Below, one piece after another: positions 1-43,361 of a DNA stretch of 54,558 nucleotides; position 1 is the stretch's first letter, and each line of letters opens with the position of its first letter. Made by a program: the position numbers and the translations under genes. Source of the stretch: a virus; the IMG/VR virus record IMGVR_UViG_3300013125_000008, positions 1-54,558 of that record; one strand, written 5' to 3'. The notes beneath the pieces were generated by a model. The model saw only the letters and a list, made by a program, of their open reading frames with translations, did no database searches and was not told the DNA's origin.

Positions 1-645
1 CAAGACGGTAACCTTCACCGAATTGACGGTCCTGCTGCAGAATATGCAAGCGGTACTAAATTTTGGTATCAAAATGGTAAATGCCACCGAACTGACGGAC
101 CTGCTATAGAATGGGCTAACGGTGATAAAGAATGGTATCAAAATGGTAAACTTCACCGAACTGATGGTCCCGCTGTAGAATATGCAAGCGGTACTAAATT
201 TTGGTATCAAAATGGTAAATGTCACCGAACTGACGGACCTGCTATAGAATGGGCTAACGGTAATAAAGAATGGTACGCAAACAATAATGTTATCGGTAAA
301 AGTGATAACGGATTTACTGATGAAGATTTTGAAAAATGGAAACAAGAGAATCCGAATAAATTAGAAGTTACAGCAAATCTGTTAAATAAATTAAGCTGGG
401 CAGGACAAGCGGTAATAGATAGTCAAGTTATAAAAGATTCTTTAATTAGTGATATCCGTTCAAGTGTTGATGTTATTTTATCTTTCGATAATTATAAAAA
501 TGAGTCTTTTGACGAAAATCTGCACCGGCAAACAAAATTTCATAGCTTACTTTCAGATATATATGATTATTCTGTAGCAGATTTGCGAAAAGTAATGGAA
601 ATAGTGCGTCGAGAATTACAGAAGTTACCCATTACCATTTTGTAA
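1..645 (+). CDS. MORN/YwqK-like repeat protein, 3' part
   Basis: This reading frame is open from the first base of the window and ends at TAA 643-645, so its start lies upstream. The visible 214 residues begin with four 23-residue repeats of the type NGKxHRTDGPAxE(Y/W)A(S/N)G with a closing WYQN, which resemble MORN_2/YwqK antitoxin-type repeats. A non-repetitive, mostly helical, charged tail of about 115 residues follows. Units 1 and 3, and units 2 and 4, are nearly identical, so a two-unit block was duplicated recently. Repeats of this kind usually form beta-hairpin stacks that bind other proteins or surfaces. The gene sits just upstream of the portal gene, but no function can be assigned. 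The repeat call is fairly sure; any toxin-antitoxin role would be speculation. Confidence 0.75.
   Translation, partial: QDGNLHRIDGPAAEYASGTKFWYQNGKCHRTDGPAIEWANGDKEWYQNGKLHRTDGPAVEYASGTKFWYQNGKCHRTDGPAIEWANGNKEWYANNNVIGKSDNGFTDEDFEKWKQENPNKLEVTANLLNKLSWAGQAVIDSQVIKDSLISDIRSSVDVILSFDNYKNESFDENLHRQTKFHSLLSDIYDYSVADLRKVMEIVRRELQKLPITIL
7..282 (+). repeat. Four tandem 69-base repeats (two 138-base blocks)
   Basis: The in-frame units start at 7, 76, 145 and 214, each 69 bases (23 codons) long. Units 1 and 3 differ at about five positions and units 2 and 4 at about six, while neighbouring units differ far more. The last duplication event therefore copied a 138-base pair of units. The array may continue upstream of the window. 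Confidence 0.9.
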
Positions 646-735: not shown

Positions 736-2769
736 ATGGGCTACCTAATTGGAAGCCAGTTTAAATTAGCAGAAGGTACGAATGAAGAGTTCAGGAAAGC
801 AAGAGCTTCCCAATTTAATAATTCAAGAGAACTTACTGAAGTTCCTATTGTTACTCCGCAGAGATCTACTGGAAATTTAGCAAACGCGCAAGCACGCCGG
901 CTTGTTACAGCGGGCGTTTCTGATGTTACTCGAACGGCTCCGATATTTAATGATCCTCGATATACTTCTTCTACATTATCCATCCCTACAGATGATAGAA
1001 CCCTTCATGGACTTTATAGATTTTTCGCAGAGACAGATCCGATTGTAGGCGCATCATTAAAATTATTAAGCGATTTGCCGCTTGCAGATTTGACTCTTGG
1101 ACAGTGCGAAGATTCCGGAGTTCAACAGCATTATGAAGATATGTGGGAAAGAATTAATGGCATTAAACTTTTGAGTGATATTACTCAAGAATATTACGAA
1201 ATCGGTAATGTTTATCCCTTTGGTGCTTTTAATGAAGCAGATTATATGTGGGATCAATTCGCGCTACTTAATCCTGATTACGTAAAGATTGAGAGTACGT
1301 GGATAAATGCTAAGCCTCTTATAAAACTTATTCCAGACGAAACGCTAAAAAGAGTTGTTCATACTCAAAGCCCTAGGTATATTTACGATCAGCTTCCTGA
1401 AGAGATGATACAATATGTACTATTTAATCAAGAAATTCCTCTCGAGCCTAATAATGTATTTCATGTAGCTCATGCTATGCGGCCATATGAATTAAAAGGT
1501 CGATCGCTTATAAAAAGAATTCTTAAGACGTTAATGCTGGAGGATCGATTTAATCAAGCAAATTTTGCTTTAGCTACTAGACATGCAGTACCTCTTACGA
1601 TTGTTAAAGTCGGAGATCCCGCTTCAGGATGGATACCGAAAGATGAAGAAATTAATGCTGTAAGGGATTTATTCGGAGCTTACGAGCTTGATCCAAATTT
1701 TAGTATTTTTTATCACTACGGAATAAATGTAGAGTATTATGGAAGTAATGGTAAAATGCTTCCGATTGGTCCAGAGCTTGATAGAATTTATAGATTAAAA
1801 TTTATCGGAATGGGAGTGCATGAGCAGCTTTTAGCCGGTCAGGGAGGTAGTTATAGTCAAGCTTATATTAACCTCGAAGTACAGAGGCAAAGATATCTTA
1901 ATTTACAATTAAAATTAGAAACGCTAGTTCATCAGGGCTGGTTTAAACCTGTAGCGGATTTATGCGGATTTTATCGTGTAAAGCAAGCTGTTGCTGGATA
2001 CGGCGGCGTTACTAAAAGCAAATGGGGCAGTACGATAAGTGCAAGTGAAGCGTACGCTAAGAATTTTAAATCTTTGCGGGATTTTCAAGATAATGCAGAA
2101 TTTCAAAAATTTACAATTTCTAAGACTGCAGAGAATAAAGGTACCGTCAGAGACTACGTATACCCGAAGCTTGATTGGGGAGCATTATCGGCGGCATCTG
2201 ATGAAAATTTGAAAAATTACATTAAGTGGCTTACAGATAAACGGCCGCATCTTGTAGATGATGGTACGCTTGCGCGACTTGCTAAGTTAGATAGAGATAC
2301 TCAAGAGAAAGCATATATTTCAGATCTTAGAAGAGCTCAGCAAAGAACAATTGCAATTTCAAAAGAGGGATTATTACCGTTCGTTGATAAAAAAACCGGA
2401 GGCGGCGCAGGAGATGGAGGCTTCGATCTCGGAGGATTAACCGGTGCAGATTTTAACGGCGGTACAATACCTATTGGAGATACTGCGGAATTAGGGATAG
2501 CGGAAGGGGGACCGCCGCCGTCGCCTATCGGAGAGGCCGGAGCTCCAGAAGCAGCTAATGGTAATGAACCAGCGGTAGGACTGTCATCATTATTTAATGA
2601 TCTTAGCAAAGAAGTTTATAGCTCTATTACGGAAGATGATATGTATTTTAGACGAGAAAATCATAAATTATCTACAAATCATGTAAACGTAATTAAAAAC
2701 TTAACTCCAGATCAGAAGCAAAATTTTGCTGCTATAATTAAAGAAATTGATAGAATTCAGGAAAGTTAA
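736..2769 (+). CDS. Portal protein
   Basis: This 677-residue protein is the probable portal, the dodecameric ring at one head vertex through which DNA is packaged and ejected. It has portal-like features: an acidic segment with LSDLPLADLTLG near residue 115, a clip/stem region with YYEIGNVYPFGAFNEAD, a long central segment with HAVPLTIVKVGDPASGW near residues 285-300, and a helical region rich in Q, L and Y (LEVQRQRYLNLQLKLETLVHQ) near 380-400. A Gly/Pro-rich linker at about 555-610 leads to a helical tail. AAGGA at 724-728 is a well-placed ribosome-binding site. The gene is followed by the protease-like gene after 6 bases, the usual portal-protease order. Terminase is not in the window. Confidence 0.75.
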   Translation: MGYLIGSQFKLAEGTNEEFRKARASQFNNSRELTEVPIVTPQRSTGNLANAQARRLVTAGVSDVTRTAPIFNDPRYTSSTLSIPTDDRTLHGLYRFFAETDPIVGASLKLLSDLPLADLTLGQCEDSGVQQHYEDMWERINGIKLLSDITQEYYEIGNVYPFGAFNEADYMWDQFALLNPDYVKIESTWINAKPLIKLIPDETLKRVVHTQSPRYIYDQLPEEMIQYVLFNQEIPLEPNNVFHVAHAMRPYELKGRSLIKRILKTLMLEDRFNQANFALATRHAVPLTIVKVGDPASGWIPKDEEINAVRDLFGAYELDPNFSIFYHYGINVEYYGSNGKMLPIGPELDRIYRLKFIGMGVHEQLLAGQGGSYSQAYINLEVQRQRYLNLQLKLETLVHQGWFKPVADLCGFYRVKQAVAGYGGVTKSKWGSTISASEAYAKNFKSLRDFQDNAEFQKFTISKTAENKGTVRDYVYPKLDWGALSAASDENLKNYIKWLTDKRPHLVDDGTLARLAKLDRDTQEKAYISDLRRAQQRTIAISKEGLLPFVDKKTGGGAGDGGFDLGGLTGADFNGGTIPIGDTAELGIAEGGPPPSPIGEAGAPEAANGNEPAVGLSSLFNDLSKEVYSSITEDDMYFRRENHKLSTNHVNVIKNLTPDQKQNFAAIIKEIDRIQES

Positions 2770-2775
2770 AAAAAA

Positions 2776-3783
2776 ATGATTGTAAAAGAATGTAGCCAAA
2801 TTGTAAGGTGCGTACCGTTACCAAAGCAGACATTTTCTGCTGAGCGACGAATTATACCAATAGATGATACGCATAGGTTATTGAGATTTCGCGCAATTGC
2901 AAATCTTTGTAAAGGATCGTTTAACGGAAATTACGATGGATTTCCTTATGAATATTTTGAAGACTCAACTCCTGGATATGGATATAAATCATTTATTGGC
3001 AAGCGAGCTCATCACGAGCATAACTCCGCTCTTGGCATTACCGGCTCAATCGGAGATTTGCCTGACGCGTTCTTAAATAAGTTTCTTTACCCTTCTTCGG
3101 TTCCACACAGAGATTGGAGTAAGTTAGGGGGTCGAGCAAACGCCAGTCTTCGACAATCTATTCTTGATCTGCCAGAGCAACGCGCGGGAGATATTGAAGT
3201 GTTAATGCGACTTGACACGACATTAACTAAGAATAGTTCTACAGATGCGGGTGTTCGAAAAGCGTTAGATCGAATACTGCGAGCGATTGATAATAAACAG
3301 AAATTATTTTGCTCGATGGGTACTAATGTTGAGTATTCTGTATGTTCAGCTTGTGGAACTAGCGCACGATTTGCTAAAGATTATTGCGACCATTTGCGGC
3401 ATCGTAAAGGCGCGATGATTGTAACGACAGCGAACAGTATAAGAGATTTGCTTGATAAAGATCTCCTTCGTCCCGAGTGGTTAAAGCATGTAGTAACTTC
3501 TTCTTTTGATGTAAAAGAAATTTTGAATGGTATTTCCAATAAGCCGGTTTCAGCGAGAGCTGGAGAAATAAATCATAAGCTTTCTTTTTTTGAGTTATCA
3601 ATAGTTGGAATGCCGGCGTACGCAGAAGCAGAAGTATTAGAAAAAATAGCAAGACAGCAGGATGAAGGTCATAAAGATTACATTCGTCGAATCGCTAAGA
3701 CTCTCGGAAGAGATGCTATAGTAGATCTTTACGAGATACTTCAAGAAGAAGGATTAATTTCATCAATGTGTAAGGTAGCTTAA
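2776..3783 (+). CDS. Putative prohead maturation protease with zinc-binding insert
   Basis: The 335-residue product follows the portal directly, where large phages place the protease that processes the prohead core and capsid. The sequence shows a histidine cluster (H79, H80, H82, in KRAHHEHN) followed by a Gly-rich strand, and a possible zinc site C179, C190-x2-C193 and C204-x-H206 (CSACG and YCDH). The stretch FFELSIVGMPAYAEAEVL near residues 270-290 resembles the late conserved strand of phage head-maturation proteases, where the substrate-binding sheet ends. I cannot point to a proven nucleophile, so the protease call rests on position and these local patterns. Its stop codon shares one base with the start of the next gene. 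Confidence 0.5.
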   Translation: MIVKECSQIVRCVPLPKQTFSAERRIIPIDDTHRLLRFRAIANLCKGSFNGNYDGFPYEYFEDSTPGYGYKSFIGKRAHHEHNSALGITGSIGDLPDAFLNKFLYPSSVPHRDWSKLGGRANASLRQSILDLPEQRAGDIEVLMRLDTTLTKNSSTDAGVRKALDRILRAIDNKQKLFCSMGTNVEYSVCSACGTSARFAKDYCDHLRHRKGAMIVTTANSIRDLLDKDLLRPEWLKHVVTSSFDVKEILNGISNKPVSARAGEINHKLSFFELSIVGMPAYAEAEVLEKIARQQDEGHKDYIRRIAKTLGRDAIVDLYEILQEEGLISSMCKVA

Positions 3784-4700
3784 TGAAACCGTTTAAAACT
3801 CTTTGGAAAGGTGATTGGGTAAGTGTTATATCTCCAGAAGGAGCCCCTTACGAAACTCTTCACGAGAAGGATATTATTTTATGTCTTCCTATTAAAGAAT
3901 TTGAAGACGGCCATAAAGAAGTCGGTATTAGAGAAGAGTATTGCCCGCCGTATTTTGTAAAAGATGCCGAGGGCGAAGAGCTTTATTACACTGTTCTCTC
4001 TGGAAAAATTGACGATGGTGAAACTCCAAAACAGACGTTAATAAGGGAGCTAAAAGAGGAAAGCGGAGTAGTTTTCAGTAATCCGTCAATATTAACGCTT
4101 TATGAGAATCTTCCAATCTGTAAAAGTACGACAATGAGAGGATATTGTTATATTATCTCCGGGAAAGAATTTACAGAAAAAATTCCGAAAGGAGACGGAA
4201 CAGCGAATGAAAAGAGATCAAGAACAATTTGGGTGCCGATTAAAGAGCTTTCTAGTTATTTAGAGAAACCGAATATTGACGCTTTATTGTTTAGCCTGAT
4301 AAATTATGCAGCTCTAATCGTTGCTACACAATTTATAGATCGCAGCGAAGTTACGTCTGCATTACCTGCAAGTCCGTCGCGTCCGCCTCAAAGACCGGTC
4401 GAAAAAGGTGTAGTAGTTGATATGTATGAAGTAGAATATCCGGTACCCGCTAATTCATTAAAAGAAACGGAAGCGTTAGCTGAGCATCTGGACGAGCAAA
4501 ACGATTTTATAAATCAATATTTATTTCCTTCAACTTCTACAGAAGATGTGCTAGTTACGCTTCAGCAACGCGAAGAAGATAATGCCCCGGATAAACAGAA
4601 GGCTTTACGAAATCGATCGCAACCGATCGCCAAGCAAGCGTGGAGAGAAGTGCTAAGGCAGCTAGCTCCGCGAGTTACAGCTTCTTCGGCAAGGACGTAG
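3783..4700 (+). CDS. Nudix hydrolase
   Basis: A perfect Nudix box (G-x5-E-x7-R-E-L-x-E-E-x-G-V) runs from G74 to V96, so the protein should cleave a nucleoside diphosphate linked to another group, with Mg2+ or Mn2+ bound by the box glutamates. The Nudix fold occupies roughly residues 10-185. A charged, Pro-containing extension of about 110 residues follows, with no recognised domain. Its ATG overlaps the previous stop by one base, so it is translated with the protease-like gene. A Nudix enzyme inside a head-assembly operon is unusual. Possible substrates include ADP-ribose, NAD(H), dinucleoside polyphosphates or damaged nucleotides, and the sequence alone does not decide among them. Confidence 0.9.
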   Translation: MKPFKTLWKGDWVSVISPEGAPYETLHEKDIILCLPIKEFEDGHKEVGIREEYCPPYFVKDAEGEELYYTVLSGKIDDGETPKQTLIRELKEESGVVFSNPSILTLYENLPICKSTTMRGYCYIISGKEFTEKIPKGDGTANEKRSRTIWVPIKELSSYLEKPNIDALLFSLINYAALIVATQFIDRSEVTSALPASPSRPPQRPVEKGVVVDMYEVEYPVPANSLKETEALAEHLDEQNDFINQYLFPSTSTEDVLVTLQQREEDNAPDKQKALRNRSQPIAKQAWREVLRQLAPRVTASSART

Positions 4701-4726
4701 AATTTAAATTTGTTAGAGGAAAGTCA

Positions 4727-6694
4727 ATGAGCGTAAATTTTAAATCTGTAGTTAATAAGACGCTGGAAAATACTATTTTTGAAAATTACGTAACTATAAT
4801 AGTAGATTTAGACAAAACGCTTTGGGACTGTACTTCTGTAGACGGCAGCGAGATCGGAGCTTTTGAGACAGAATCTCCGTACGAGCTTAAAGCCCCTTCT
4901 GTAATTATTGATATAAAAGGCAATATTATTCGGCTACAAGACGGCGTGCGAGATGTTTTAAAAACTTTAGATGCCGCCAATAAGAATGTCGGTATTGTAA
5001 GTAGTGGAGAAAAGCTTGTAGATTTAGCTAACAGACTTGGTTTACCTTTCGAGGCGCAACCTTCTGTAATGCTTTTAAAAAAATTCGATATTTTTCAGTA
5101 TTTTAATTACGATATAATACTTAAGGCTTTTGCTGATAAAGGAAAATACGTAAGATCTAAAGGAAAAACGTTATTTATTGATGATAATCAAGAGCAATTA
5201 GATTCGGTAATTCGACATGCAGAAGAAAATAATTTAGATCTTGATGTTCTTTCAAGGACGGCTTTTAAGAATTGGAAAGAGTTATTAGAAGGGCGCAAGC
5301 GGCAAAGTAAGTTAAGCTGGGCGCTTTCTGCCGTACCTACTGCCGATTTTGACGACAATTTAGCATTATCAAAACTAAAACATTATAATCTTTATTTTAT
5401 TAATTACGTACGTTGTAGAGACGGTCATCCTTACTGGAATGTGCTTTTGTATAAAGATTTTGAAGGGGAAGCTTTTGATTTATCCGCAGTCGATAAACTT
5501 TTAATAGTAAAAACAAGAATTTTTAGTAAGGCTGAAGCAGAGCAATTAGCTAAAGCTGCTGCATGGTCGGATACATCCAGAGGAGCGTACGTGGTTAGTT
5601 ATAGTGCTAAGACTATAACTTCAGCTACTGCAGGACAGGCGCAAGCTTTGTTTATTTGTTTTTATGTTCCTGATGTTATTAAAGGCCGGTTAGGAGCTAT
5701 TAAAGATTTAGAAGATAATCTGCACGTTACTCTATTGTATTATCCAGATGCTAAAATTACAGACGATCAACTTGAAGAATTAAAACAGGCAATAGCAAAG
5801 TTTTATGAACATTGCGAATTGAGTATAAAATGTTCTTTTACGGGAATTGCTGAATTTGATAGTAAAGATACTCCAGTAGTCGCGTTAGTTAATATGACGA
5901 ACGGCGCAGAATTTCGAACTCGATTAAAAGAAATTGTAGCTTCAGTGATAACTTTAAAAGAGAGCGATTATGATTTTATTCCTCATGTGACACTTTCTTA
6001 TACTTCACAGAAGATTGATTCTGGAATACTAAAGGATATTAATTGGATTCCTGAACATATCGGAATGAATGTTAATAAAGATAATTATTTTAGTTATAGT
6101 AAATCTGGGAAAGTAATCGACGGAAAAAATGAGGAAAGTATTCGAGTTGCGCAGAAAGGGGTAAGCGGTACTGAGATAAAGAAAATATCTTTTAAGAAAT
6201 TAGCGTTAGATAAAGAATATTGGCTTACTTATATTCCGCAATACGTTAGATCTGCCGTTAAAGGCGGCTTAGCTACAGGACTTGGAAATAAAGATAATTT
6301 AGCTAAAGACGCAATTGATCGATTACTTTTAGAAATTCCGGATAGTATTAAGCAAGAGAGGGAATTTATATCGATATTCAATGATGCTATTGAAAAATTA
6401 GAAGCAGACGGTTATGGAGATTATTTTGCTCCCCGTTCTCTTAGTTTTAATACTCCGCCTTCTGACGATGCCGGAGATCAAGCAGTTAATCAATTTGGAG
6501 AAGCAATTGATGAAGATAGCGGCGAGATAAATTTTAATATCTATACGTCTCCAGAAACTTCGATATATCAATCTCCTTATCAAAAAGAAAGATCTATAGA
6601 TACACTTTTAGATCAGTTACACGAAGCTTTAGTCATCGGGGATTACGAGACGGCAACTCAGCTTAAAGTAGAAATAAAAAAGCTTTCTAGCTAA
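4727..6694 (+). CDS. HAD phosphatase fused to 2H (LigT-like) phosphoesterase
   Basis: The product has 655 residues from ATG 4727, which is preceded by AGAGGA. An upstream ATG at 4640 would overlap the Nudix gene by 61 bases and lacks such a site. Residues 20-185 form a HAD phosphatase of the MDP-1 type: motif I VDLDKTLWD (D27, D29), a Ser motif near S92-S93, and the acidic motif FIDDN (D152, D153). Residues about 305-430 hold two H-x-T-L motifs, HVTLLYY (H333) and HVTLSYT (H420), which define 2H phosphoesterases acting on 2',3'-cyclic phosphate or 2'-5' linkages. The remaining 220 residues are unassigned. The combination suggests end-healing of RNA or removal of a nucleotide signal, which is an inference. 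Confidence 0.8.
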   Translation: MSVNFKSVVNKTLENTIFENYVTIIVDLDKTLWDCTSVDGSEIGAFETESPYELKAPSVIIDIKGNIIRLQDGVRDVLKTLDAANKNVGIVSSGEKLVDLANRLGLPFEAQPSVMLLKKFDIFQYFNYDIILKAFADKGKYVRSKGKTLFIDDNQEQLDSVIRHAEENNLDLDVLSRTAFKNWKELLEGRKRQSKLSWALSAVPTADFDDNLALSKLKHYNLYFINYVRCRDGHPYWNVLLYKDFEGEAFDLSAVDKLLIVKTRIFSKAEAEQLAKAAAWSDTSRGAYVVSYSAKTITSATAGQAQALFICFYVPDVIKGRLGAIKDLEDNLHVTLLYYPDAKITDDQLEELKQAIAKFYEHCELSIKCSFTGIAEFDSKDTPVVALVNMTNGAEFRTRLKEIVASVITLKESDYDFIPHVTLSYTSQKIDSGILKDINWIPEHIGMNVNKDNYFSYSKSGKVIDGKNEESIRVAQKGVSGTEIKKISFKKLALDKEYWLTYIPQYVRSAVKGGLATGLGNKDNLAKDAIDRLLLEIPDSIKQEREFISIFNDAIEKLEADGYGDYFAPRSLSFNTPPSDDAGDQAVNQFGEAIDEDSGEINFNIYTSPETSIYQSPYQKERSIDTLLDQLHEALVIGDYETATQLKVEIKKLSS

Positions 6695-6728: not shown

Positions 6729-6971
6729 ATGAAAACTAATTGGAGAAGAGTATTAAGCGGACTTCTTGAGAAAGATGAATTTAAGCCTTATAAAGGAACG
6801 GACGGCATAACTTTACCAAATAGAGCTGAATATACCGGTGATAAGTTTCCGGGTTCTGGAGATCCAGCGAAAATAGAATTAAATGCCTGGCATAACGAAA
6901 ATCACGAAGGGCAAGAATTGCGAAATAAAGAACACAATTCAAAAAGTTCTCCATTATTAAATGTTAAGTAA
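6729..6971 (+). CDS. Small head-region protein with TGDK-P-SG-P-AWH motif
   Basis: This 80-residue hydrophilic protein has no recognised family. It starts with NWRRVLSG, a segment also found as SWRRVLSG inside the next protein. Residues 36-55 carry TGDKFPGSGDPAKIELNAWH, closely matched by TGDKWPASGNPVDAEQSAWH in the scaffold-like protein starting at 8505. AAGGATAAGAG precedes the ATG. The shared segments suggest a common binding partner during head assembly, which is an inference. The last codons overlap an alternative upstream start of the next gene. Confidence 0.6.
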   Translation: MKTNWRRVLSGLLEKDEFKPYKGTDGITLPNRAEYTGDKFPGSGDPAKIELNAWHNENHEGQELRNKEHNSKSSPLLNVK

Positions 6972-6984
6972 AAAGGAATGTAAG

Positions 6985-8127
6985 ATGAAATTTTCATTTA
7001 AAAATTTATTTAAATCTTCAATGGATGATAATATTGTAACAGAGCCTGGAGAAAGCTTTATACCTACATCGAATGGGTACCAAACTCCAGATGATATTGT
7101 GTCAGATCTTACTTATAGAAATTATGCGTATAATAGAGATATTTCTCCAGACATTACCCCTGAAAGGTGGGAAAAAATTTATGGTCCTGTAACACAAGCT
7201 ATGGAGAAACGTTATCAGAAAGAAAAGGCAGCAGGCGCTACATTTTCATCAATGTATTATCCGCCAGAAGGTGTAAATAAAATTTATAAACGTTCTTGGC
7301 GACGTGTCCTAAGCGGTGTTGATTTTAAGCAAAAACCTGATGGTACCGTGGAGATTGATGTTTTTAAAAATGTTCCCGAGACTCCCGAATATTTTGATGC
7401 AGAAGATACGAATTCTGCAGCGCCGGCTAGTAGTAATCCGCCGCAAAGTACTAATCAAAAAGCGGCAGCTACTATTCCGAATGATGAAGATTTAAAATTT
7501 GCACTTGCCTCTCTTCCGCAAGATGCTATCGAAGTGCTTAAGCGGTATTTTGTTGAAAATCTTCCATCTTCAATGCCGTTACAAGAATTGCAAGAATTAT
7601 CAGAATCTGATGCGGCTGTTAAGGTTATTTTATCTACAATCGAAACTTCACTTGCATTACCGTCTGCAAAAGAGAGATTGCGTAAATTATTTTATCAGCA
7701 ATATCCAAGCGTTTCAAATGATACTGTAGCCAATTGGAGAAATACGCTAGAAACACTCGCGGATTTAAATTTTAAGCAGAAAACAGACGGTACGGTAGAA
7801 ATTCATAGTGATATTGAAGTAAATGATGATACAGCACAGCCAATTCCCGCGGCAAATACCGTGGCTAAACCGGTGTCTCCCGCTCCGCAAGAAGCTAATG
7901 AACAAGCGGTTTCTACTTCTTCTCGATCGCTCTCTCCAAAAGAGTGGGTGATTAAAAAACAAGGCAATTTAGTTCTTAAAGGACGTGAATGCGCTGACGC
8001 TTGCGGAATTGTAATCGAGAAAGCCGGCAAAGTAGTTGATTTTGAACGAATTCTAAAGAACGGACATTCTTGGAGAGAACTTATTAACCAAGCTGTATGG
8101 GAAGAAAGATTTCAGTCTGTAAAGTAA
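6985..8127 (+). CDS. Hypothetical head-region protein with repeated FKQK-DGTVEI element
   Basis: The start chosen is ATG 6985, preceded by AAAAGGA with a suitable spacer; the earlier in-frame ATG at 6961 lies inside the previous gene. The 380-residue product has no recognised domain. It contains SWRRVLSG followed by DFKQKPDGTVEID near residues 110-130, and the related NFKQKTDGTVEIH near residues 263-275, so a short element is duplicated. Between and after these are Ala/Pro-rich, probably disordered linkers (about 148-168 and 285-315). The C-terminus, from KEWVIKK onward, looks like a small folded domain. Its place between the portal-protease genes and the capsid genes suggests a minor head or core protein. 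Confidence 0.6.
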   Translation: MKFSFKNLFKSSMDDNIVTEPGESFIPTSNGYQTPDDIVSDLTYRNYAYNRDISPDITPERWEKIYGPVTQAMEKRYQKEKAAGATFSSMYYPPEGVNKIYKRSWRRVLSGVDFKQKPDGTVEIDVFKNVPETPEYFDAEDTNSAAPASSNPPQSTNQKAAATIPNDEDLKFALASLPQDAIEVLKRYFVENLPSSMPLQELQELSESDAAVKVILSTIETSLALPSAKERLRKLFYQQYPSVSNDTVANWRNTLETLADLNFKQKTDGTVEIHSDIEVNDDTAQPIPAANTVAKPVSPAPQEANEQAVSTSSRSLSPKEWVIKKQGNLVLKGRECADACGIVIEKAGKVVDFERILKNGHSWRELINQAVWEERFQSVK

Positions 8128-8504: not shown

Positions 8505-10136
8505 ATGGCTGAGATTAATAATACGATTAGAGTAGCCTTAGCAGAAATGCGCGACGAGCTAAATGCTGTAAAAGGTGACACCGAACAAGAAAAAAAAGAG
8601 ATTGATGCTTTTAAGCCGGAAGATATTGAAGTTTCCAGCATTGATGAAAAAGAAATTCCGGAGCATGCTAAAGAAATTAAGACTCCTGCAGATGCTAAAC
8701 AAGCATTAGATGAAGCAAAAGAAGATCTTCAATTAGTAATTGACAATTTAGACGGCTTATGCGGGCAAGTTGAAGAAGAAGAAAAAGTTGCTTCTATTAA
8801 GCGTGCAAGTCAAACTTATGCTAATAATCTAGTTTCGCTCGAGAAAAAAGCTGATCAAGCTATTAGAGAAGCAAAAAACGCTGTTACACATTGGTCTTTC
8901 TTAAAAAAAGCGCATAAGCCCGAAAATTCAATTAAAGATTCGAGTTTGAAGCAGGCGGCTGAAACAATCCGCGAGGTTAGTAAATTCCAAGCTATTCTTA
9001 ATAGTGCTCTTCCTAAGCAAGCGACTGCCGTTCCTCAAACCGGTGCTAAGTTTACGGGTGATAAATGGCCAGCTTCAGGAAATCCGGTAGATGCAGAGCA
9101 AAGCGCTTGGCACAAAGGCGAAAAAGAGTTTGGTAAAGACAAATCGTTTGAAGATATGAGACCTAATCCGGCAGTAGATCATCGATTAGATGATATTGAT
9201 TTTAAAGCAGATAATAAAAATTTTGTTTCTGCTACGTTAACTACAGCGGGAAAAAATGCAACTTGGGAAGTAATTGATACGAAATCGGGTAAGCGCCTTG
9301 TTGCGAGTTTTAATAACGTTCCGGCAGCTATTGGTCCAAAAGATCAGAGAGGTTTTAGTATTTTTACTTCAAAAAATTATGGAATGGCTGTAATAGATAA
9401 CGTACAAAAAAGAGGTATTCATAGTACAGCTTCGGAACTAAACGCTGATATTACAGCAATTTCTCCTGCGCTTCTTAAAACAGCAGCTTCTGATAAGGGA
9501 GCTTTAAAAAGTTATTATGCTGATGCATACGGCGATGCAAATTTTGCAGCCGGTATGGTAAAAAATTATCAGCCGTCTTCCGCTAATATTAATTACGAGC
9601 CTGAGAAATCAAGCGTTCCTTCAGAGAAAGTAACAGCTGCTAGAAGACCCGCACCTGCAAGTACAGATCCTGTAGCTATTCAAGCAAAAGCTCGACAAGT
9701 AGTTAAGCTTGCTCGTCAGTACGCAGCGACAGGCGCGATTCCTTTTACAAAAAATGCTATTGCTGATAAAGCAGCGCAGTTAATGTCATTATCTGCTGCT
9801 GAATTTGCAAGTAAAGTAGCTACGCTGAAAGAGTTTCCGATTATTAATGAAGCTGCACTAAAACAAGCTCATCTTCCAGAATCAGAAAGTGGTGTTGTAG
9901 GGAATAGTGCAACAGGCGTTAGCAAACCTTTTGGACAGGTAGCAACAGAAAATTTAAATTCAGGTGTAAAGAGTGATGCTAAGATTGCAAAAGCGGCTTC
10001 GCAAAACGTTCCACAATTTCGTGCAGCGACTCCGAAATTAGATTTAACTTCATCTTTTACAACTACGGTAAATAAACTGCAGGCGAAAGGTGTTGATTTG
10101 AATAAAGTACGCACACCGATTTATAAAACATTTTAA
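8505..10136 (+). CDS. Putative scaffold / prohead core protein
   Basis: This 543-residue protein lies directly before the decoration-like and capsid genes, the usual scaffold position. The first 160 residues are highly charged and helical (many E and K, with heptads), as in core or scaffold proteins. A segment TGDKWPASGNPVDAEQSAWH near residues 184-203 matches one in the 80-residue protein at 6729. The middle, about 225-315, looks like a compact beta-rich domain (ATWEVIDTKSGKRLVASFNN). The C-terminal third is Ala/Ser-rich and probably flexible. AAAGGAG gives a strong ribosome-binding site, and a consensus-like promoter precedes it. A minor capsid protein is the alternative. Confidence 0.5.
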   Translation: MAEINNTIRVALAEMRDELNAVKGDTEQEKKEIDAFKPEDIEVSSIDEKEIPEHAKEIKTPADAKQALDEAKEDLQLVIDNLDGLCGQVEEEEKVASIKRASQTYANNLVSLEKKADQAIREAKNAVTHWSFLKKAHKPENSIKDSSLKQAAETIREVSKFQAILNSALPKQATAVPQTGAKFTGDKWPASGNPVDAEQSAWHKGEKEFGKDKSFEDMRPNPAVDHRLDDIDFKADNKNFVSATLTTAGKNATWEVIDTKSGKRLVASFNNVPAAIGPKDQRGFSIFTSKNYGMAVIDNVQKRGIHSTASELNADITAISPALLKTAASDKGALKSYYADAYGDANFAAGMVKNYQPSSANINYEPEKSSVPSEKVTAARRPAPASTDPVAIQAKARQVVKLARQYAATGAIPFTKNAIADKAAQLMSLSAAEFASKVATLKEFPIINEAALKQAHLPESESGVVGNSATGVSKPFGQVATENLNSGVKSDAKIAKAASQNVPQFRAATPKLDLTSSFTTTVNKLQAKGVDLNKVRTPIYKTF

Positions 10137-10697: not shown

Positions 10698-10800
10698 GTA
10701 AAAAAAGTTTTGTCTCTGCAGAGAGATTAAAAAAAGCGTGCATGGAAGAGCGCTTAGAAATACTTCCATTTATTTTTTAATAATTATTCAGGAGAATGAA

Positions 10801-11742
10801 ATGATTAAGTTACCCGGTTCTGAAAAGCCTCGAAACGGTTTTTCTCTAGCTAAGACAGCTTCTGCTGGGATTAACGATCCTTATCAAACGTATCAAAAAT
10901 CTGTATTGGATAGAGATACAATTTGGGAAAGTTTAACCACTGAAGGCGGTCGTCAAGCAGTTGCAGCTCAAATGGCGGTGCCTATTCGCCAAGAGCTTGA
11001 TTATGTAGGCGTAGCTCGTAAATTTTTCGAAATCGACGTGCTTGCGCAAGGCCAGATTGCTCGTTATGATTATGATGTAAGCGTTCCCGCTTTTGTCGTA
11101 TCAAAACGCGGCAAAGTTACTAAATGGACTGTAGAAGGTGATTATGTAGAACCGACCACATGGGAGATTTTCTCTCCGGCGGCTATTAGATTATCTCAAA
11201 TTCAGCAACGTAGGTTTAATATTCTTGACAGAACTCAAGAAAAAATTCGAATTGCAACACAAGTGCAGGAAGATGATCAGTTTTTGCAGCTGTTAGCAGC
11301 AACAACAGCAGCAAACACGGCTAATAATCCTGTTTCTACCTCGGTTACCGGATGTTCAAAAGAGTTCTTAAATGATATTAGCGCAACGATTATGGATCAT
11401 GATCTTCCTTGCTATTCATTTTTGATGAGATTTAAATCCTTCAAAGATATCCGTACTTGGGGAACATCTGAACTTGATCCAGTTACGATGCGTGAAATCT
11501 TAGAGACCGGGCTGTACGGCTCTATTTGGGGAATCGATATTATTGTTTCCCGTAGAGTTACTGCCGGTACAGTTTACGCAAGTGCTGAACCGAGATTTTT
11601 CGGTGTTATGCCTGTCAGAACGGAGCTTATTCTTATGCCCGATGATGAAGCTAAACAAGCTACCATCGGCTACGTAGGATATGAAGAGTTAGGAATGGCT
11701 CTTTTAGTTCCGAATGGCGCAGCTGTAGGAACTCATAACTAA
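10801..11742 (+). CDS. Major capsid protein
   Basis: The start chosen is ATG 10801, preceded by CAGGAGA, giving 313 residues; an in-frame ATG at 10738 would add a 21-residue leader with no good ribosome site. Position after protease and scaffold-like genes, size, and sequence style fit an HK97-fold capsid protein. The sequence shows an N-terminal flexible arm (to about 45), an E-loop-like region with VSKRGKVTKWTVEGDYVEPTTWEI (about 97-120), a long helix (about 130-165), and a late beta-rich part with FFGVMPVRTELILMPDDE before a conserved-looking GYVGYEELGMALLVPNG end. A strong terminator follows at 11775. Ambiguity is small because no other window gene fits better. Confidence 0.8.
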   Translation: MIKLPGSEKPRNGFSLAKTASAGINDPYQTYQKSVLDRDTIWESLTTEGGRQAVAAQMAVPIRQELDYVGVARKFFEIDVLAQGQIARYDYDVSVPAFVVSKRGKVTKWTVEGDYVEPTTWEIFSPAAIRLSQIQQRRFNILDRTQEKIRIATQVQEDDQFLQLLAATTAANTANNPVSTSVTGCSKEFLNDISATIMDHDLPCYSFLMRFKSFKDIRTWGTSELDPVTMREILETGLYGSIWGIDIIVSRRVTAGTVYASAEPRFFGVMPVRTELILMPDDEAKQATIGYVGYEELGMALLVPNGAAVGTHN

Positions 11743-11860: not shown

Positions 11861-12442
11861 ATGCCTACGTACAGCACAGCACAGCAATATCACATAAATT
11901 TACTAAGAAGCGAGCTCAGCATGCGAGCAACCAAAGCTTCTGGATCCTCTTTTATTTTATCTGCCAAATTAGGAGACGACGAACTCTGGGAAGATCTTCG
12001 TTTAGGATTAAATATGTTTAATTCTACTCCGCCTATCGTAACAACTTTTTCTTTCGCTGATTTGTATTCTGCCTCAGCTTCCGCAGCACTTAGCGGGGAG
12101 GATCCTAATGCTCCAGCGCTAGAAGACACAGTATCTATTTATACTACAGCCGTAATGATGTGCGCTCAATTTTTTTCAGGCATTAGATTACAATGGTTTG
12201 AAGCAGGTAAGCATTTTAGATATAACGATAATGGTATTTCTATTGAGCGCGTTAAGCAGGCAGATTATCAAAATATTATATCTAGCCAAATTCTTCAATT
12301 TATAACTGCCGTATTGCCGCTGATAAGAAAGACAATGGCGTTTGAGCAATTTAGTGCTAAAGGTCAATTTTCAGGAACAATAGCTTTTCCTCGATCTCTT
12401 ACAAGGGGATTGCGCGGAACGCGTCTAGGAGCGGGAAGTTAA
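11861..12442 (+). CDS. Putative neck / head-completion protein
   Basis: The 193-residue product follows the capsid gene and its terminator, where head-completion or adaptor proteins are usually encoded. It has an N-terminal helix, a DDELWEDLRLGLNMFNSTPP segment (about 39-58) that looks like a conserved phage structural patch, mixed helices in the middle, and a Gly/Arg-rich end. No signature motif identifies it. The ribosome-binding site is poor. The stop shares one base with the start of the receiver-domain gene, so the two are translationally linked. Confidence in the gene is high, in the function low. Confidence 0.45.
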   Translation: MPTYSTAQQYHINLLRSELSMRATKASGSSFILSAKLGDDELWEDLRLGLNMFNSTPPIVTTFSFADLYSASASAALSGEDPNAPALEDTVSIYTTAVMMCAQFFSGIRLQWFEAGKHFRYNDNGISIERVKQADYQNIISSQILQFITAVLPLIRKTMAFEQFSAKGQFSGTIAFPRSLTRGLRGTRLGAGS

Positions 12443-12930
12443 TGAGAAAAACCTTAAATATTTTAGTTCTAGAAGATGATAAACCTTCTAGAGTAGTATA
12501 TCAAAAGTACTTACAGTCGACTTTTTCATCGTGTATAATTGCGGCGAGTATAGAAGAAGCTTTAGCGGTATTGTCTTTTCAGCGCCCGGATATTTATTTA
12601 GTGGATTTAAGTATAGGAGATTCACGACCGTCGGTATCGCAAAGCTATAAAGGCCTTGAATTTATTCAAACTGTAAGATCGTTTGACGAAGACGCGATTA
12701 TTATAATAGTAACTGCACACGCGGCATTTGTATTTGAATATCCGGATTTTTGTTCGGCGTATAATGTAAGTAAAGTGCTAACAAAGCCGGTAGATAAAGA
12801 AATTTTATTAAAAAATTTACAAGAATTATCAGTTGAGTATTTATCAAGAAAGCTAGCGCATCTTTCAATGATAGCAACGAGCGCGGAAGAAGATACGTTA
12901 GATTTTATTAAAAAACAAGAAAGTGTATAA
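12442..12930 (+). CDS. Stand-alone response-regulator receiver (REC) protein
   Basis: Residues 5-128 form a complete receiver domain: the acidic pocket E11-D12-D13 (LEDDK), the phospho-acceptor position D55 (YLVDLS), T91-A92 (VTAHA) and K115-P116 (LTKPVDK). All residues needed for Asp phosphorylation are present. About 30 further residues form a helix, and no DNA-binding or enzymatic output domain follows, so it resembles single-domain CheY/Spo0F-like proteins. It starts inside the stop of the neck-like gene and is followed by the PAS protein. No histidine kinase was seen in the window, so a host kinase or a distant phage gene would have to supply phosphate. Its place in a structural-lysis operon is very unusual. 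Confidence 0.9.
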   Translation: MRKTLNILVLEDDKPSRVVYQKYLQSTFSSCIIAASIEEALAVLSFQRPDIYLVDLSIGDSRPSVSQSYKGLEFIQTVRSFDEDAIIIIVTAHAAFVFEYPDFCSAYNVSKVLTKPVDKEILLKNLQELSVEYLSRKLAHLSMIATSAEEDTLDFIKKQESV

Positions 12931-12937
12931 AGTAAAT

Positions 12938-13438
12938 ATGTTAACTGCAACGTCCCCTTCGGCAATAAGAAAGAGCGCACAGTATGCAGACGAGTTGAAA
13001 GAAAAAATTGCATCTTTGCGGACAATGCGAGAAGATATTCGAGGTATCCGCCAATTATTTTCTTCTGCAAATGAAGAATTTCAATTATTATCGAATATTT
13101 TTAATAACATTCCAGCAATGCTCTTTCTTAAAGACACTCAAAATCGCTTATTAAAAGTAAATGATTATTTTTGTCAAGTTACCGGTTTGCGCCGAGAAGA
13201 TGTAGAAAAAAAAGCATTATCAGAGATTGCTACAGATCAGTTAGGGCTAGTCGAACATTACGCATTAAACGATTATGATGTAATTTACAAAAAGCAGCCG
13301 AAAAAAGGCATTATTGAAAAATTGTTTAGTAATCCCTCTATCACATTACGTACTGATAAATTTCCCGTTATCGTTGATGGAAAAGTCATCGGAATTTTTG
13401 GTATTAGTGTAGATATTTCCGATCAATTAAATTCTTGA
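12938..13438 (+). CDS. Stand-alone PAS-domain protein
   Basis: The ATG at 12938 gives 166 residues; an in-frame GTG at 12923 would overlap the receiver gene by 8 bases. Residues about 10-50 are helical and charged, probably a coiled coil that dimerises the protein. Residues about 50-162 form a PAS fold with the typical opening IFNNIPAMLFLKDTQNRLLKVND and VTGLRREDV, and a PAC-like ending IVDGKVIGIFGISVDISDQ. PAS domains bind small molecules or partners and sense redox, light or metabolites. No kinase, cyclase or DNA-binding output is attached. Directly after a receiver gene, it looks like the sensor half of a split signalling module. Confidence 0.85.
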   Translation: MLTATSPSAIRKSAQYADELKEKIASLRTMREDIRGIRQLFSSANEEFQLLSNIFNNIPAMLFLKDTQNRLLKVNDYFCQVTGLRREDVEKKALSEIATDQLGLVEHYALNDYDVIYKKQPKKGIIEKLFSNPSITLRTDKFPVIVDGKVIGIFGISVDISDQLNS

Positions 13439-39643: not shown

Positions 39644-39972
39644 AAAATTATGTAATAATTCGTGCTACCGCAACAACTTCGACCGTAATTGCAACTAAGC
39701 TTACTAAAGCCGCAGCTCTTTCTGCTGTAAGAGCAATGCAAGCTCAAGCGTTGCAGCTTAAAAGAGATCTCGCGCAATATCAACAAGCCGAGACCGCGTT
39801 ATCTTCTAAACAGTTCGCTTTACTGCAAGCTAAATTTATTAAAAAATATAAAGATCAAATAATTCCCTCCGCCGCGCCTTTTATTTTCTTACCGCTTATG
39901 TTAAAGGCAAAGCTCGGCGAATTAAAAGGTATGTATACAGTAGTAGCAGCAGAAATTATGGAGATACAATGA
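39640..39972 (+). CDS. Small helical protein starting at TTG
   Basis: The likely start is TTG 39640, which overlaps the previous stop by 4 bases and is preceded by AAAGG (39628-39632) with a 7-base spacer; an ATG at 39586 would reach deep into the previous gene. The 110-residue product (MKNYVIIRATATTS...) is mostly helical, with a Gln/Ala/Leu-rich middle (VRAMQAQALQLKRDLAQYQQ) that may form a coiled coil and a hydrophobic stretch around APFIFLPLMLKA. It overlaps the glycosyltransferase start by 4 bases. No family is recognised. Confidence 0.55.
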   Translation: MKNYVIIRATATTSTVIATKLTKAAALSAVRAMQAQALQLKRDLAQYQQAETALSSKQFALLQAKFIKKYKDQIIPSAAPFIFLPLMLKAKLGELKGMYTVVAAEIMEIQ

Positions 39973-41198
39973 TAAAGTTATTAATGGTAGCAGACGATAT
40001 ACGTTATTTCAGCGGAGTGGCAAATCAAGCGCGTATGTTATTAAAAGGTCTTTTATCTACTGGTAATTATGAAATCATGGAGATCGGTTCTTCTACATAC
40101 AAGCATCCTCCAAAGCTTGTTGAATTCGAGGGAATTCAAATATTACCCACGGTCGATCACGATGATCCAAATATTTTTCGTTCTGCGCTATTATCTTTTA
40201 AGCCTGACGTAGTCGTAGTTTTCGGAGATCCGAGATTCTTTCACAGGCTATTCTTACTGGATCGAGATATCCGCACTTCCGCAAAATTTATACTATGGCA
40301 TGCATGGGATAACGCTCCTGTTCCTTATTTTAATCGTAAATTTTATGAGTCTGTTGATCAATTAGTAATGATTTCTAATTTTTCTTATCAATTAATAAAA
40401 CCATTCGCAGAGCGGTTTGTGCCTATTGATTTTATTCCTCACGGATACGATAGTCAAGAGTTTTTTCCATTACCCGTCGAGGAGAGGAATAAAGAGATAA
40501 ATACATTATTAAATGTTGTCGGGTTTAAAGCTTTAGATAAGCCGTTTTTCGTCGGTTGGAATAATAGAAACCAAGATCGGAAGCGTCCGGGCACGGTACT
40601 CGAAGCTTTTGGAAAATTTCAACAAACTCATCCCGATGCTTTACTCTTATTGCACACATTGCCGAAAACGATCGAGGGTATTGATATCATTACTTTTTTA
40701 GAAGAAACTGCAATTGCTCCTTCCTCTTCCGTGATTTTCTTTCCGGCAATTTTGCCTTCGCAAGCAATGAATTCGTTTTATAATATAGCTGACGTTACAT
40801 TAAATATTGCATTTAACGAAGGCTTTGGTTTAAGTGTAGGAGAAAGCTTGACAGCGGGTACTCCCGGGATCGTTGTTTCTACGGGAGGGATGTCAGAGCA
40901 AATGACAGACGGTAAGCAAGTATTTGGTGAGTTGCTGCCGCCCTCTTTAAGAAATCTCAGCGGCACGGTAGCAGAGCCGTATCTTTATTGTGACTATGTT
41001 TCAGTAGATGAAATAGTTTCCGCACTTGAGCGTGTTTATAATAATAAAGATCGACAGGCTTTAGGACTTGCCGGTCGCGAGTTTATAACTCGCACTTATT
41101 CAAAAGATATGATGATAGCAAAATGGAATGATTTATTGCAGAAATTGCTTACAACTCCTACTACGTATGTTCCATTCTCTTTAACAAAGGTGCTATAG
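39969..41198 (+). CDS. GT4-type glycosyltransferase
   Basis: This 409-residue protein has the GT-B layout. The N-terminal Rossmann-like domain starts with IKLLMVADDIRYFSGVANQARML and includes PDVVVVFGDPRFF (about 79-91). The C-terminal domain has FFVGWNNRNQDRKRPG (about 193-208) and the retaining-enzyme E-x7-E motif, E284 to E292 (NEGFGLSVGESL), which binds the sugar nucleotide. It should transfer a sugar from a nucleotide donor to a glycan or protein acceptor. It starts a run of glycan genes with 0-4 base junctions. Donor and acceptor are unknown. Confidence 0.85.
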   Translation: MIKLLMVADDIRYFSGVANQARMLLKGLLSTGNYEIMEIGSSTYKHPPKLVEFEGIQILPTVDHDDPNIFRSALLSFKPDVVVVFGDPRFFHRLFLLDRDIRTSAKFILWHAWDNAPVPYFNRKFYESVDQLVMISNFSYQLIKPFAERFVPIDFIPHGYDSQEFFPLPVEERNKEINTLLNVVGFKALDKPFFVGWNNRNQDRKRPGTVLEAFGKFQQTHPDALLLLHTLPKTIEGIDIITFLEETAIAPSSSVIFFPAILPSQAMNSFYNIADVTLNIAFNEGFGLSVGESLTAGTPGIVVSTGGMSEQMTDGKQVFGELLPPSLRNLSGTVAEPYLYCDYVSVDEIVSALERVYNNKDRQALGLAGREFITRTYSKDMMIAKWNDLLQKLLTTPTTYVPFSLTKVL

Positions 41199-42407
41199 AT
41201 GACACAAGTATTTGATATCGCTGTTTCGACTTCTTCGCAAACAAACGTGGTTATAAGAGCGCCTTTTTATAGCCTTTCAGGCTACGGAGCTCATGTAAGA
41301 GATCTTATCGAAGCACTTACTTTAGATCCTCAACTATCTGTTTACCTATTACCTACGGTATGGGGAGAATCGAGTGAATTATTTAGTAATAAAGATATGC
41401 AAGATTTACCTTCCGCCTTGCAATTACTTCCTTTTTATAATAGCCAATTTCCATTGTCGGAAGCGGTGTTTATACATATCGGATTGCCTTCCGAATTTGA
41501 AAGGTTAGGAAAAGTAAATATTGGCGTTACCGCCGGCCTTGAGACTACAGCTATTCCAGACGCTTGGCTAGAGGGCTTAAAAAATATTGATCTTTTAATT
41601 GTTCCTTCTTCCTTTGTGATGCAAGTGTTTTTAAGTTCTGGAGCTGAAGTACCGATTACGGTTATAGGAGAAGGTGTAAAAACTGATAAGTTTTTTCCAG
41701 AGACGGATAAGTCCTCTTTTAAGATCTTGGATAATCTACCTGAGTTTACTTTTTTGTATTCCGGACAATGGCTGCACGCTAATCGCCCTGCCGCGGATAG
41801 AAAAAATGTAGAAATGTTAATCCGCTGTTATTGTGAAGCTTTTTCCGGAAGGCAAGATGTCGGTTTACTATTAAAAACTCATTTTCTTAATTATTCTTCG
41901 ATTGATAAGTTTGAGGTTTTAAAGGCGCTTGCAAGAATTGTTAAATCCTATACTGATCCGCCCCCCGTATTTCTATTACACGGCGTATTATCAGACGATG
42001 AATTGCGTCATTTGTATAATCATCCTTCTATTAAGGCTTTTGTTTCTTGTACCGCCGGGGAAGGGTGGGGTAGAACCTCTGCAGAAGCTATTGCTTGCGA
42101 TTTGCCGGTATTGATTACAGGATGGTCTGGCCATATGGACTATATCGACTCTTCTTATTCTACTACATTTCTTTATGATTTAGTAGATATTGATACGGCG
42201 TTATATCAATACCCTTGGTTCCGACCTGGAATGAAATGGGCACATCCGAAAAAAGATGATGTTATTAGAAAACTTCAGCGAGTTAATGAAAGTTATAAAT
42301 TTAGCAAAGATCGTGCAGTCATCTACGGAAAGATTTTTCGAGAGAATTTTGAAAGTAAAAAATGTTATTCTGCGCTTGTAGAATTAATAAAAGCGAGAAG
42401 TAAGTGA
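41199..42407 (+). CDS. GT4-type glycosyltransferase
   Basis: The 402-residue product is a second GT-B enzyme, starting immediately after the previous stop. The N-terminal part has RAPFYSLSGYGAHVRDL (about 20-36), a glycine loop typical of acceptor-side contacts, and NIGVTAGLETTAIPDAW (about 107-123). The C-terminal part has the E-x7-E motif E288 to E296 (GEGWGRTSAEAI), preceded by a probable donor-site VFLLHGVLSDDELRHLYN. It differs enough from the preceding enzyme to suggest another donor or linkage. Both belong to the same likely transcript. Confidence 0.8.
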   Translation: MTQVFDIAVSTSSQTNVVIRAPFYSLSGYGAHVRDLIEALTLDPQLSVYLLPTVWGESSELFSNKDMQDLPSALQLLPFYNSQFPLSEAVFIHIGLPSEFERLGKVNIGVTAGLETTAIPDAWLEGLKNIDLLIVPSSFVMQVFLSSGAEVPITVIGEGVKTDKFFPETDKSSFKILDNLPEFTFLYSGQWLHANRPAADRKNVEMLIRCYCEAFSGRQDVGLLLKTHFLNYSSIDKFEVLKALARIVKSYTDPPPVFLLHGVLSDDELRHLYNHPSIKAFVSCTAGEGWGRTSAEAIACDLPVLITGWSGHMDYIDSSYSTTFLYDLVDIDTALYQYPWFRPGMKWAHPKKDDVIRKLQRVNESYKFSKDRAVIYGKIFRENFESKKCYSALVELIKARSK

Positions 42408-42703
42408 TATTAGAAAAATCAATATTAACTGCAGAAGATATGCTCATAACGCAGCTTGGATTATTATCTATTCAAGAAATTCTTTCCAGCGTTAAGTTAG
42501 AGGAGTATAATAATAGGTTGCTAACTTCTTTAGTTGAATTAGAAGCCGCCCGACTTGCTGTTATTCCGATTCGAGAAAAGCCGGAGCTGCAACTTGATAT
42601 GGAGAGAGTTAAAGATTACGTAACTATATTAACTACGGCGCTAGCTAAAGCAAACGAGGTAAAACTTATTTTTAATATGTGGAGAGGAGAAACTGTAGTA
42701 TGA
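42404..42703 (+). CDS. Small helical hypothetical protein
   Basis: It starts at GTG 42404, giving 99 residues and a 4-base overlap with the glycosyltransferase stop. The first in-frame ATG is at 42440, so the start is uncertain. The product is fully helical and Leu/Glu-rich with no hydrophobic anchor, so it is probably soluble and oligomeric. No family is recognised. Its stop overlaps the start of a 20-residue ORF by 4 bases. Confidence 0.5.
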   Translation: MILEKSILTAEDMLITQLGLLSIQEILSSVKLEEYNNRLLTSLVELEAARLAVIPIREKPELQLDMERVKDYVTILTTALAKANEVKLIFNMWRGETVV

Positions 42704-42762
42704 TTGTTTTTATTTGTAATAAGAAATTATTTATTATTGAACAAGAAAGGCGTAGTATATGA
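42700..42762 (+). CDS. Tiny ORF coupled at both ends
   Basis: ATG at 42700 overlaps the previous stop as ATGA. The frame encodes MIVFICNKKLFIIEQERRSI and stops with TGA 42760-42762, overlapping ATG 42759 of the methyltransferase again as ATGA. A 20-residue ORF that exactly bridges two genes this way may serve translational coupling more than make a useful peptide. The hydrophobic N-terminal half and basic end would also suit a small membrane peptide. Confidence 0.3.
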   Translation: MIVFICNKKLFIIEQERRSI

Positions 42763-43310: not shown

Positions 43311-43361
43311 AAAAATATGAACTTGCTAATATTTACAGAATTGATAAGGCGCTGAAACTTT

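Follow-up and report, generated by a model that had tools for sequence, protein, structure and literature searches.

Nudix and HAD-2H enzymes in the head operon of an uncultivated phage as putative parts of a modular, tagged head cargo

The internal head proteins of phage T4 carry a capsid targeting sequence. Here we describe a putative head cargo encoded in IMG/VR virus record IMGVR_UViG_3300013125_000008, the whole of which (54,558 bases) constitutes the window of this analysis and whose gene content (baseplate J, a weak sheath match and a class II ribonucleotide reductase) suggests a contractile-tailed phage. Its head operon holds a gene for a Nudix hydrolase and, next to it, one for a HAD phosphatase fused to a 2H phosphoesterase (HAD-2H), and we propose that the two proteins are probably the window's part of a modular head cargo that carries a short peptide tag and is packed and ejected.

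Head-linked enzymes of this kind have been described before. In the accessible text of the sources, Nudix is joined to MuF, portal or head peptidase, and 2H to MuF or portal, an arrangement suggestive of head packaging (PMC9503650), and the work on polyvalent proteins makes largely the same statement on head-encoded enzymes, likens these proteins to polyproteins and proposes that embedded peptidases release their parts (PMC5512222). The idea of injection has likewise been published, and so have head-encoded multidomain proteins with Nudix, 2H, InPase, GNAT and peptidase domains (PMC5512222, PMC9503650 and PMC7824862, in their accessible parts). A preliminary description of this DNA had considered such enzymes rare in head operons, which these published fusions contradict. 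The general hypothesis of injected head-operon enzymes is therefore not ours; new here are a repeated boundary tag, which the preliminary description overlooked, and a modular, tagged cargo. No report of a repeated boundary tag was found in the literature searched, where coverage of subscription papers and preprints was thin. The intact families and motifs, the gene order, the tag, its concentration in the cargo of four relatives and of the window, and the shuffling of modules at tags were all computed directly.

The Nudix and HAD-2H genes and their position

The genes of the head operon run in the order portal, protease-like, Nudix, HAD-2H, two more open reading frames (ORFs), scaffold-like and major head protein, and the same order was found in a relative, G002. 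Three points of the preliminary description, namely a perfect Nudix box, the joining of a HAD phosphatase to a 2H phosphoesterase in the next gene, and the position of both genes between the protease-like gene and the scaffold and capsid genes, were borne out (Table 1).

The Nudix protein scored 36 bits against the Pfam NUDIX profile (E 8.4e-9, cut-off 21.1) and its box matches GX5EX7REUXEEXGU, which by sequence places it in the Nudix hydrolase family. Its predicted model was confident over most of residues 30-180, and the top matches of this model in a Foldseek search of the PDB were NUDT5, a Bdellovibrio NDP-sugar (nucleoside diphosphate sugar) hydrolase and a Thermus ADP-ribose pyrophosphatase, with moderate TM-scores. 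Entries for an ADP compounds hydrolase stood lower in the list and MutT made up 1 of the 50 matches listed, the rows being redundant. By sequence, the best NCBIfam equivalog was MutT (2.7e-6, far below its cut-off), and all NCBIfam equivalogs stayed below theirs. Since MutT scores best by sequence and ADP-ribose pyrophosphatases by fold, an ADP-ribose-like substrate class is favoured by the model as a candidate; the earlier suggestion of ADP-ribose as a substrate agrees with the predicted fold. The C-terminal module of the protein, from GVVVDMYEVEYP onward, is found in two relatives (G004 and G009) in the absence of a Nudix domain, which makes the enzyme an optional extra on a conserved head-operon module.

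The HAD-2H protein more likely starts at ATG 4727, behind AGAGGAAAG, than at GTG 4640, the in-frame start of the listed ORF. This one ORF matched both Pfam Acid_PPase (4.6e-5, below cut-off) and 2_5_RNA_ligase2 (PF13563; 3.6e-6, 27.5 bits, cut-off 27), and in NCBIfam both MDP-1 (7.1e-10) and RNA 2',3'-cyclic phosphodiesterase (4e-7), each under its equivalog cut-off. The HAD motifs DLD, SSGE and FIDD are all in place and align with those of the relatives, and the best structural matches to the model of residues 11-188 were MDP-1 entries, including 1u7p (Foldseek, 9.1e-5). The DxD nucleophile, the downstream DD motif and the predicted HAD fold together point to membership of the HAD superfamily. 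Identity as an MDP-1 equivalog was not reached (TIGR01685, 39.3 bits of the 53.75 needed), and the resemblance is one of fold and subfamily only.

The 2H domain retains both of its H-V-T-L motifs (5717-5734 and 5978-5998), and these two H-x-T/S-x motifs, along with a profile score over the cut-off, indicate a 2H phosphoesterase. The domain did not qualify as an equivalog of ThpR, the RNA 2',3'-cyclic phosphodiesterase (TIGR02258, 30.1 bits of the 65.7 needed). An Acb1-type enzyme directed against the cyclic oligonucleotide-based antiphage signalling system (anti-CBASS) was considered and rejected, as PF23474 gave an E of 0.001 and 19.2 bits, under its cut-off of 27, and the 2_5_RNA_ligase2 and RNA 2',3'-cyclic phosphodiesterase profiles fit better; the domain also matched Pyrococcus PH0099 (1e-3) better than Acb1. 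The 2H part of the AlphaFold model was too poor for use. Searches with the HAD-2H protein returned no relative, and a scan with the 2H domain returned only G003. As read from the sequence, the catalytic motifs of the Nudix, HAD and 2H domains are all intact.

Tagged, multidomain cargo genes in related phages

Scans with the capsid, protease, HAD and Nudix proteins yielded 10 protease-bearing contigs (nine and G009), of which G005 and G006 look like one phage. A HAD gene lies in the head region of four of these (G002, G003, G004 and G009) and a Nudix gene in two (G002 and G003), while the 2H domain was present in the window and, as a separate ORF, in G003. None of these enzymes was found in the protease-to-capsid interval of G005, G006, G008, L042 or L043, and the L041 sequence stops shortly after the protease and cannot be judged. 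In an attempt to find a host, protease and capsid scans of genome contigs gave no match.

At the corresponding place, G002, G003 and G004 encode long multidomain ORFs of 1602 (cut), 1046 (cut), 1265, 1089 and, in G004, 1277 amino acids (aa), and G009 encodes cargo ORFs of 2990, 2505, 1394, 1223, 1077 and 1551 aa. At its two ends, the G009 contig encodes peptides that share a stretch of ~40 residues, identical but for one position, and therefore its giant ORFs probably directly follow the portal-protease block. Fic domains (7e-12 to 9e-15; 36% identity to P1 Doc) were found in the cargo of all four phages, and G009 adds Hist_deacetyl (6e-45), InPase (1.5e-45), SET (2e-9) and Amidase_2 (1e-14) domains; further domains in the relatives include a weak GNAT, papain and C39-like peptidases and, by eye, a zinc-peptidase motif, HELVHS. 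The Fic modules, with the motif HPFxD[AG]NKRT, lie in the head-cargo chains of four phages at L046:3178-3600, L023:12197-12616, L048:898-1320 and L078:12336-12698 (minus), the others being 48-60% identical to the first, and the stretches of G009 that bear deacetylase-type, InPase, SET and amidase domains lie at L078:8268-15785 (minus) and L079:12742-14278 (minus). Combinations of this sort (HAD and 2H in the window, HAD and Fic in G003, Fic, deacetylase and InPase in G009) would make these chains polyvalent proteins by their domains, with disparate activities in one chain encoded alongside virion genes.

A gapped-triplet enrichment search of 25 cargo ORFs (12,031 aa) against 282 other ORFs (79,752 aa) ranked K.SW first, with 19 occurrences against 1.26 expected and 1.06 scaled from the other ORFs. 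The profile built from these occurrences had the consensus [AS]S[QL]K[LF]SWQ. The tag takes the form K-L-S-W in G002-G004 and the window and SLxTxAEGLD in G009, where 45 copies were counted. When cargo was labelled by position, after the motif had been noticed, the cargo of G002-G004 (11,148 aa) held 31 copies of K.[SAG]W and the 14,200 aa outside it 2; in the window the counts were 4 in 1,671 aa of cargo and 1 in the other 15,897 aa, and in G009, without enrichment, 2 in 11,203 aa and 8 in 52,808 aa. [AS]E[GA]L shows the reverse, with 45 copies in the cargo of G009 and 6 elsewhere in it, and no enrichment in G002-G004 (1 vs 2) or the window (0 and 0). The half shared by both forms, [SAT]L[KRQ]F, is enriched in the cargo of G002-G004 (12 vs 0) and G009 (11 vs 10) and not in that of the window (0 vs 3). 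Across the whole of G005 (43,182 aa), the three patterns number 8, 2 and 9.

The end of the Nudix protein, KQAWREVLRQL (also written K-x-A-W-R-x-V-L), combines the K-x-[SA]-W tag with a second pattern, W[RK]x[VILT][LFI]. This pattern, noticed post hoc in this window, occurs 6 times in the window's cargo and once elsewhere in it, and in the cargo and other ORFs of the relatives 2 and 0 (G002), 3 and 0 (G003) and 4 and 0 times (G004). Several relatives have small ORFs that start with this pattern, for example MNSWRQILSWQ and MKNWREVLLKLSW.

An ORF can hold as many as 24 tags, which sit at the boundaries of modules, mostly with ~100-120 residues between them. Among 16 pairs of homologous segments on different contigs, nine align from within 12 aa of a tag on both sides, so modules tend to move between phages as tag-bounded units; of the remaining seven pairs, six are Fic modules that start ~100 residues or more past the last counted tag. 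The codings of the tag are largely distinct (7 of 9 in G002, 6 of 6 in G004 and 17 of 23 in the 2990-aa ORF of G009), and this synonymous codon variety rules out a recent DNA repeat and indicates that selection acts on the peptide. A by-product of tandem domain duplication was likewise rejected, as few segments are homologous within one ORF and segments instead match across phages. An unsupervised repeat search of 164 ORFs of at least 300 aa flagged 15, made up of four cargo ORFs and 11 others (8 in G005, 2 in G009 and 1 in G008) that we take for tandem domain repeats. At its 1.3-fold limit the search missed the 1277-aa ORF of G004, although a run with 12 shuffles had flagged it, and two tagged ORFs of G003 were missed as well.

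Packaged cargo and its alternatives

Packaging, the role of the tag, cutting, ejection and the substrates are what we infer from these data. The enzyme modules would be produced together with the head genes, with the tag, a short, lineage-specific peptide, sitting at module boundaries or protein ends; the tag would bring the cargo into the prohead, where chains may be cut apart, and the cargo would be ejected with the DNA at infection, like known internal head proteins. Once in the host, the Nudix domain might cleave ADP-ribose-like molecules or a different NDP-X compound, the 2H domain might open the ring of 2',3'-cyclic phosphates at RNA termini or of cyclic nucleotide signals, and the HAD domain might remove a phosphomonoester. 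Most likely, the tag singles out cargo for entry into the prohead, and it is perhaps also the place of cutting; its N-terminal, internal and C-terminal positions fit targeting, and its regular spacing fits cutting. The scaffold-like protein is a candidate receptor, and the greater divergence of its sequence between the two tag lineages (34% identity, against 48-55% for the protease) is what a co-varying receptor would show.

Alternatively, the tags could be cleavage sites only, the cargo ORFs being true polyproteins from which the adjacent head protease frees single enzymes, with other signals driving packaging, which we consider possible if somewhat doubtful. The placement and spacing of the tags and the protease gene in the same operon agree with this, as does the resemblance of AE|G in G009 to the P1 glutamate of the SPN3US sites ASE, AVE and ALE (PMC10052503, in its accessible part). 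Yet the proteins that such a protease usually cuts, here the scaffold-like and major head proteins of these phages, showed no KLSW or AEGL tag, and the tag is wholly different between phages whose proteases remain as similar as given above, which together argue against a general maturation site; moreover, related WR tags stand at N-termini, where cutting releases nothing. It is very improbable that the enzyme folds are reused as accessory parts of the head or portal, with catalysis incidental: PHROG head-protease and portal profiles do align weakly with the 2H and Nudix domains (2.6e-4 and 0.055), but the catalytic motifs are intact, and only some of the relatives have the domains.

We also think it unlikely that the enzymes are passengers, expressed late for turnover of nicotinamide adenine dinucleotide (NAD) or ADP-ribose or for RNA-end repair in the infected cell and never packaged, with the tag as an assembly or solubility linker. 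Such a role is in keeping with the HAD fold, that of MDP-1, a cellular phosphatase, and with the possibility that 2H and HAD jointly heal RNA ends. A coupled repair pathway was nevertheless rejected, since HAD occurs without 2H in G002, G004 and G009 and 2H lies in a separate ORF in G003, an uncoupling that speaks against a dedicated two-step pathway; besides, close relatives have the genes in head operons too, the tag and modules are common to large, effector-rich ORFs, and the Nudix domain is attached to a conserved head-operon module. The preliminary description had named genes lying elsewhere in relatives, with no link to heads, as evidence against injection, and here the result is divided, as some Nudix and distant HAD relatives do lie outside head operons, while the close HAD relatives (43-50% identity) sit within them.

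Those outlying genes, which also favour passengers, are among several observations that weigh against packaged cargo. Nudix relatives lie among tail-type genes in L003 and elsewhere in L062 and L063, and of the 11 distant HAD relatives (L050-L060, 30-36% identity) all five inspected lie in sugar-biosynthesis-like clusters. No comparable tagged cargo was seen in the head regions of G005, G008, L042, L043, phage G and Rctr197k, and the two enzyme genes of the window contribute just a single clear KLSW, with a second in the partial ORF at 1-645. Because the motif was seen before the cargo labels were set, the p-values for enrichment serve as description only, and for these uncultivated phages the head content is predicted from genes. 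Still, packaged and ejected cargo is the reading that we prefer: the idea of head-packed, injected enzymes, already put forward in the preliminary description, fits the genomic context, the shared cargo tags and the co-encoded effector domains, even though the rarity that accompanied it did not stand.

More broadly, we see about an even chance that large phages of one clade fill their heads with shuffled chains of host-directed enzymes, in which a lineage-specific boundary peptide serves as a packaging signal, a cutting signal or both and modules are gained by joining the tag. Should the tag have such a role in packaging or processing, sequence alone would suffice to spot head cargo in uncultivated phages, a short peptide would be enough to test how phages select proteins for the head, and a large set of candidate early effectors would come into view (Doc-type Fic, deacetylase, SET, ADP-ribose and cyclic-phosphate enzymes).

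Neighbouring features and comparison with known systems

Table 1. Features of the head operon and of the Nudix and HAD-2H genes in the window.
Feature	Position	Strand	Basis or remark
Partial ORF before portal	1..645	+	KLSW tag at 388-399; cargo-polyprotein position of G002, G003, G004
Portal protein	736..2769	+	phrog_16240 3.5e-57; 31% identity to phage G gp14 (distant homologue)
Head maturation protease-like gene	2776..3783	+	phrog_18299 head maturation protease 4.4e-5
Nudix hydrolase protein, 305 aa	3783..4700	+	Pfam, predicted fold
Nudix box GKIDDGETPKQTLIRELKEESGV	4002..4070	+	perfect GX5EX7REUXEEXGU match
Conserved module GVVVDMYEVEYP... in Nudix protein	4407..4568	+	also in G004, G009 without Nudix domain
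C-terminal tag KQAWREVLRQL of Nudix protein	4632..4664	+	sequence; C-terminal helix in predicted model, low confidence
HAD-2H fusion protein, 655 aa from ATG 4727	4727..6694	+	profile matches, motifs
HAD domain, MDP-1-like	4757..5290	+	NCBIfam MDP-1; Foldseek top MDP-1 1u7p
Tag KLSW, in low-confidence linker after folded HAD, before next domain	5309..5320	+	sequence, predicted model
2H phosphoesterase domain, LigT/ThpR-like, two HVTL motifs	5717..6013	+	profiles, motifs
C-terminal module of HAD-2H	6443..6691	+	common to cargo ORFs of G002, G003
Small ORF beginning MKTNWRRVL, contains GDKFPGSGDP	6729..6971	+	in relatives joined to next ORF's protein
WR-repeat protein, three W-R-x-x-[LI] copies	6961..8127	+	sequence
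Scaffold-like protein	8505..10136	+	named by position, no profile match; without K[LF]SW tag
Major head protein	10804..11742	+	in-frame ATG within listed ORF 10738-11742; phrog_2522 7.7e-54

The protease-like gene has homologues at 37-63% identity, and in an alignment His82 and Ser180, which we take to be its catalytic residues, were invariant among 4 homologues. In the partial ORF at 1-645, GKxHRTDGPAxE-type repeats precede the KLSW tag, and a match to DUF6745 was weak. A second shared peptide, TGDKFPGSGDP...AWH, is found in both the small WR ORF (6729-6971) and the scaffold-like protein (8505-10136) and recurs in relatives. After the capsid gene, amid structural genes (12442-13438), are a response-regulator receiver protein and a PAS-domain protein, both above Pfam cut-offs, and past the tail genes (39969-45281 and 49388-52138) are glycosyltransferase genes and the class II ribonucleotide reductase. 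In two other phages, the capsid gene of L043 (8297-10137) seems, by eye, to be interrupted by a homing-endonuclease-like ORF, suggesting an intron or intein, and Rctr197k (L088:7982-14509) has a 2175-aa ORF directly before the portal, the cargo position, with no repeated tag detectable.

Of the described systems, polyvalent proteins are alike in joining unrelated enzyme domains (2H, InPase, GNAT and zinc peptidases) in one chain, in having virion genes as neighbours and in being thought packaged and injected (PMC5512222); the cargo described here differs from them in having a recurrent, lineage-specific short boundary peptide, with up to 24 copies per chain, which the accessible text of that paper does not mention. 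The head-linked Nudix and 2H domains of myoviruses share the injection hypothesis and the fusion to head proteins, namely MuF, portal or head peptidase for Nudix and MuF or portal for 2H, whereas here Nudix is fused to another head-operon module and 2H to an MDP-1-like HAD, and tags are added (PMC9503650, accessible part). The 2H fold is also common to the anti-CBASS enzyme Acb1, below whose profile cut-off the window's domain scores. Phage P1 Dar proteins, as far as the available portions of the sources describe them, are likewise large internal head proteins that act against host defence, some of them processed before packaging, though their domains differ (PMC12810830, PMC5512222). Finally, the T4 internal proteins and the SPN3US ejection proteins with their propeptides (PMC10052503, as partly accessible, for the latter) offer the likeness of a short peptide that possibly directs entry into the prohead, a protease in the same system and ejected proteins; unlike theirs, the tag described here, a putative cleavage site at most, is repeated within the chain as well as at its ends, and its KLSW form does not resemble AXE.

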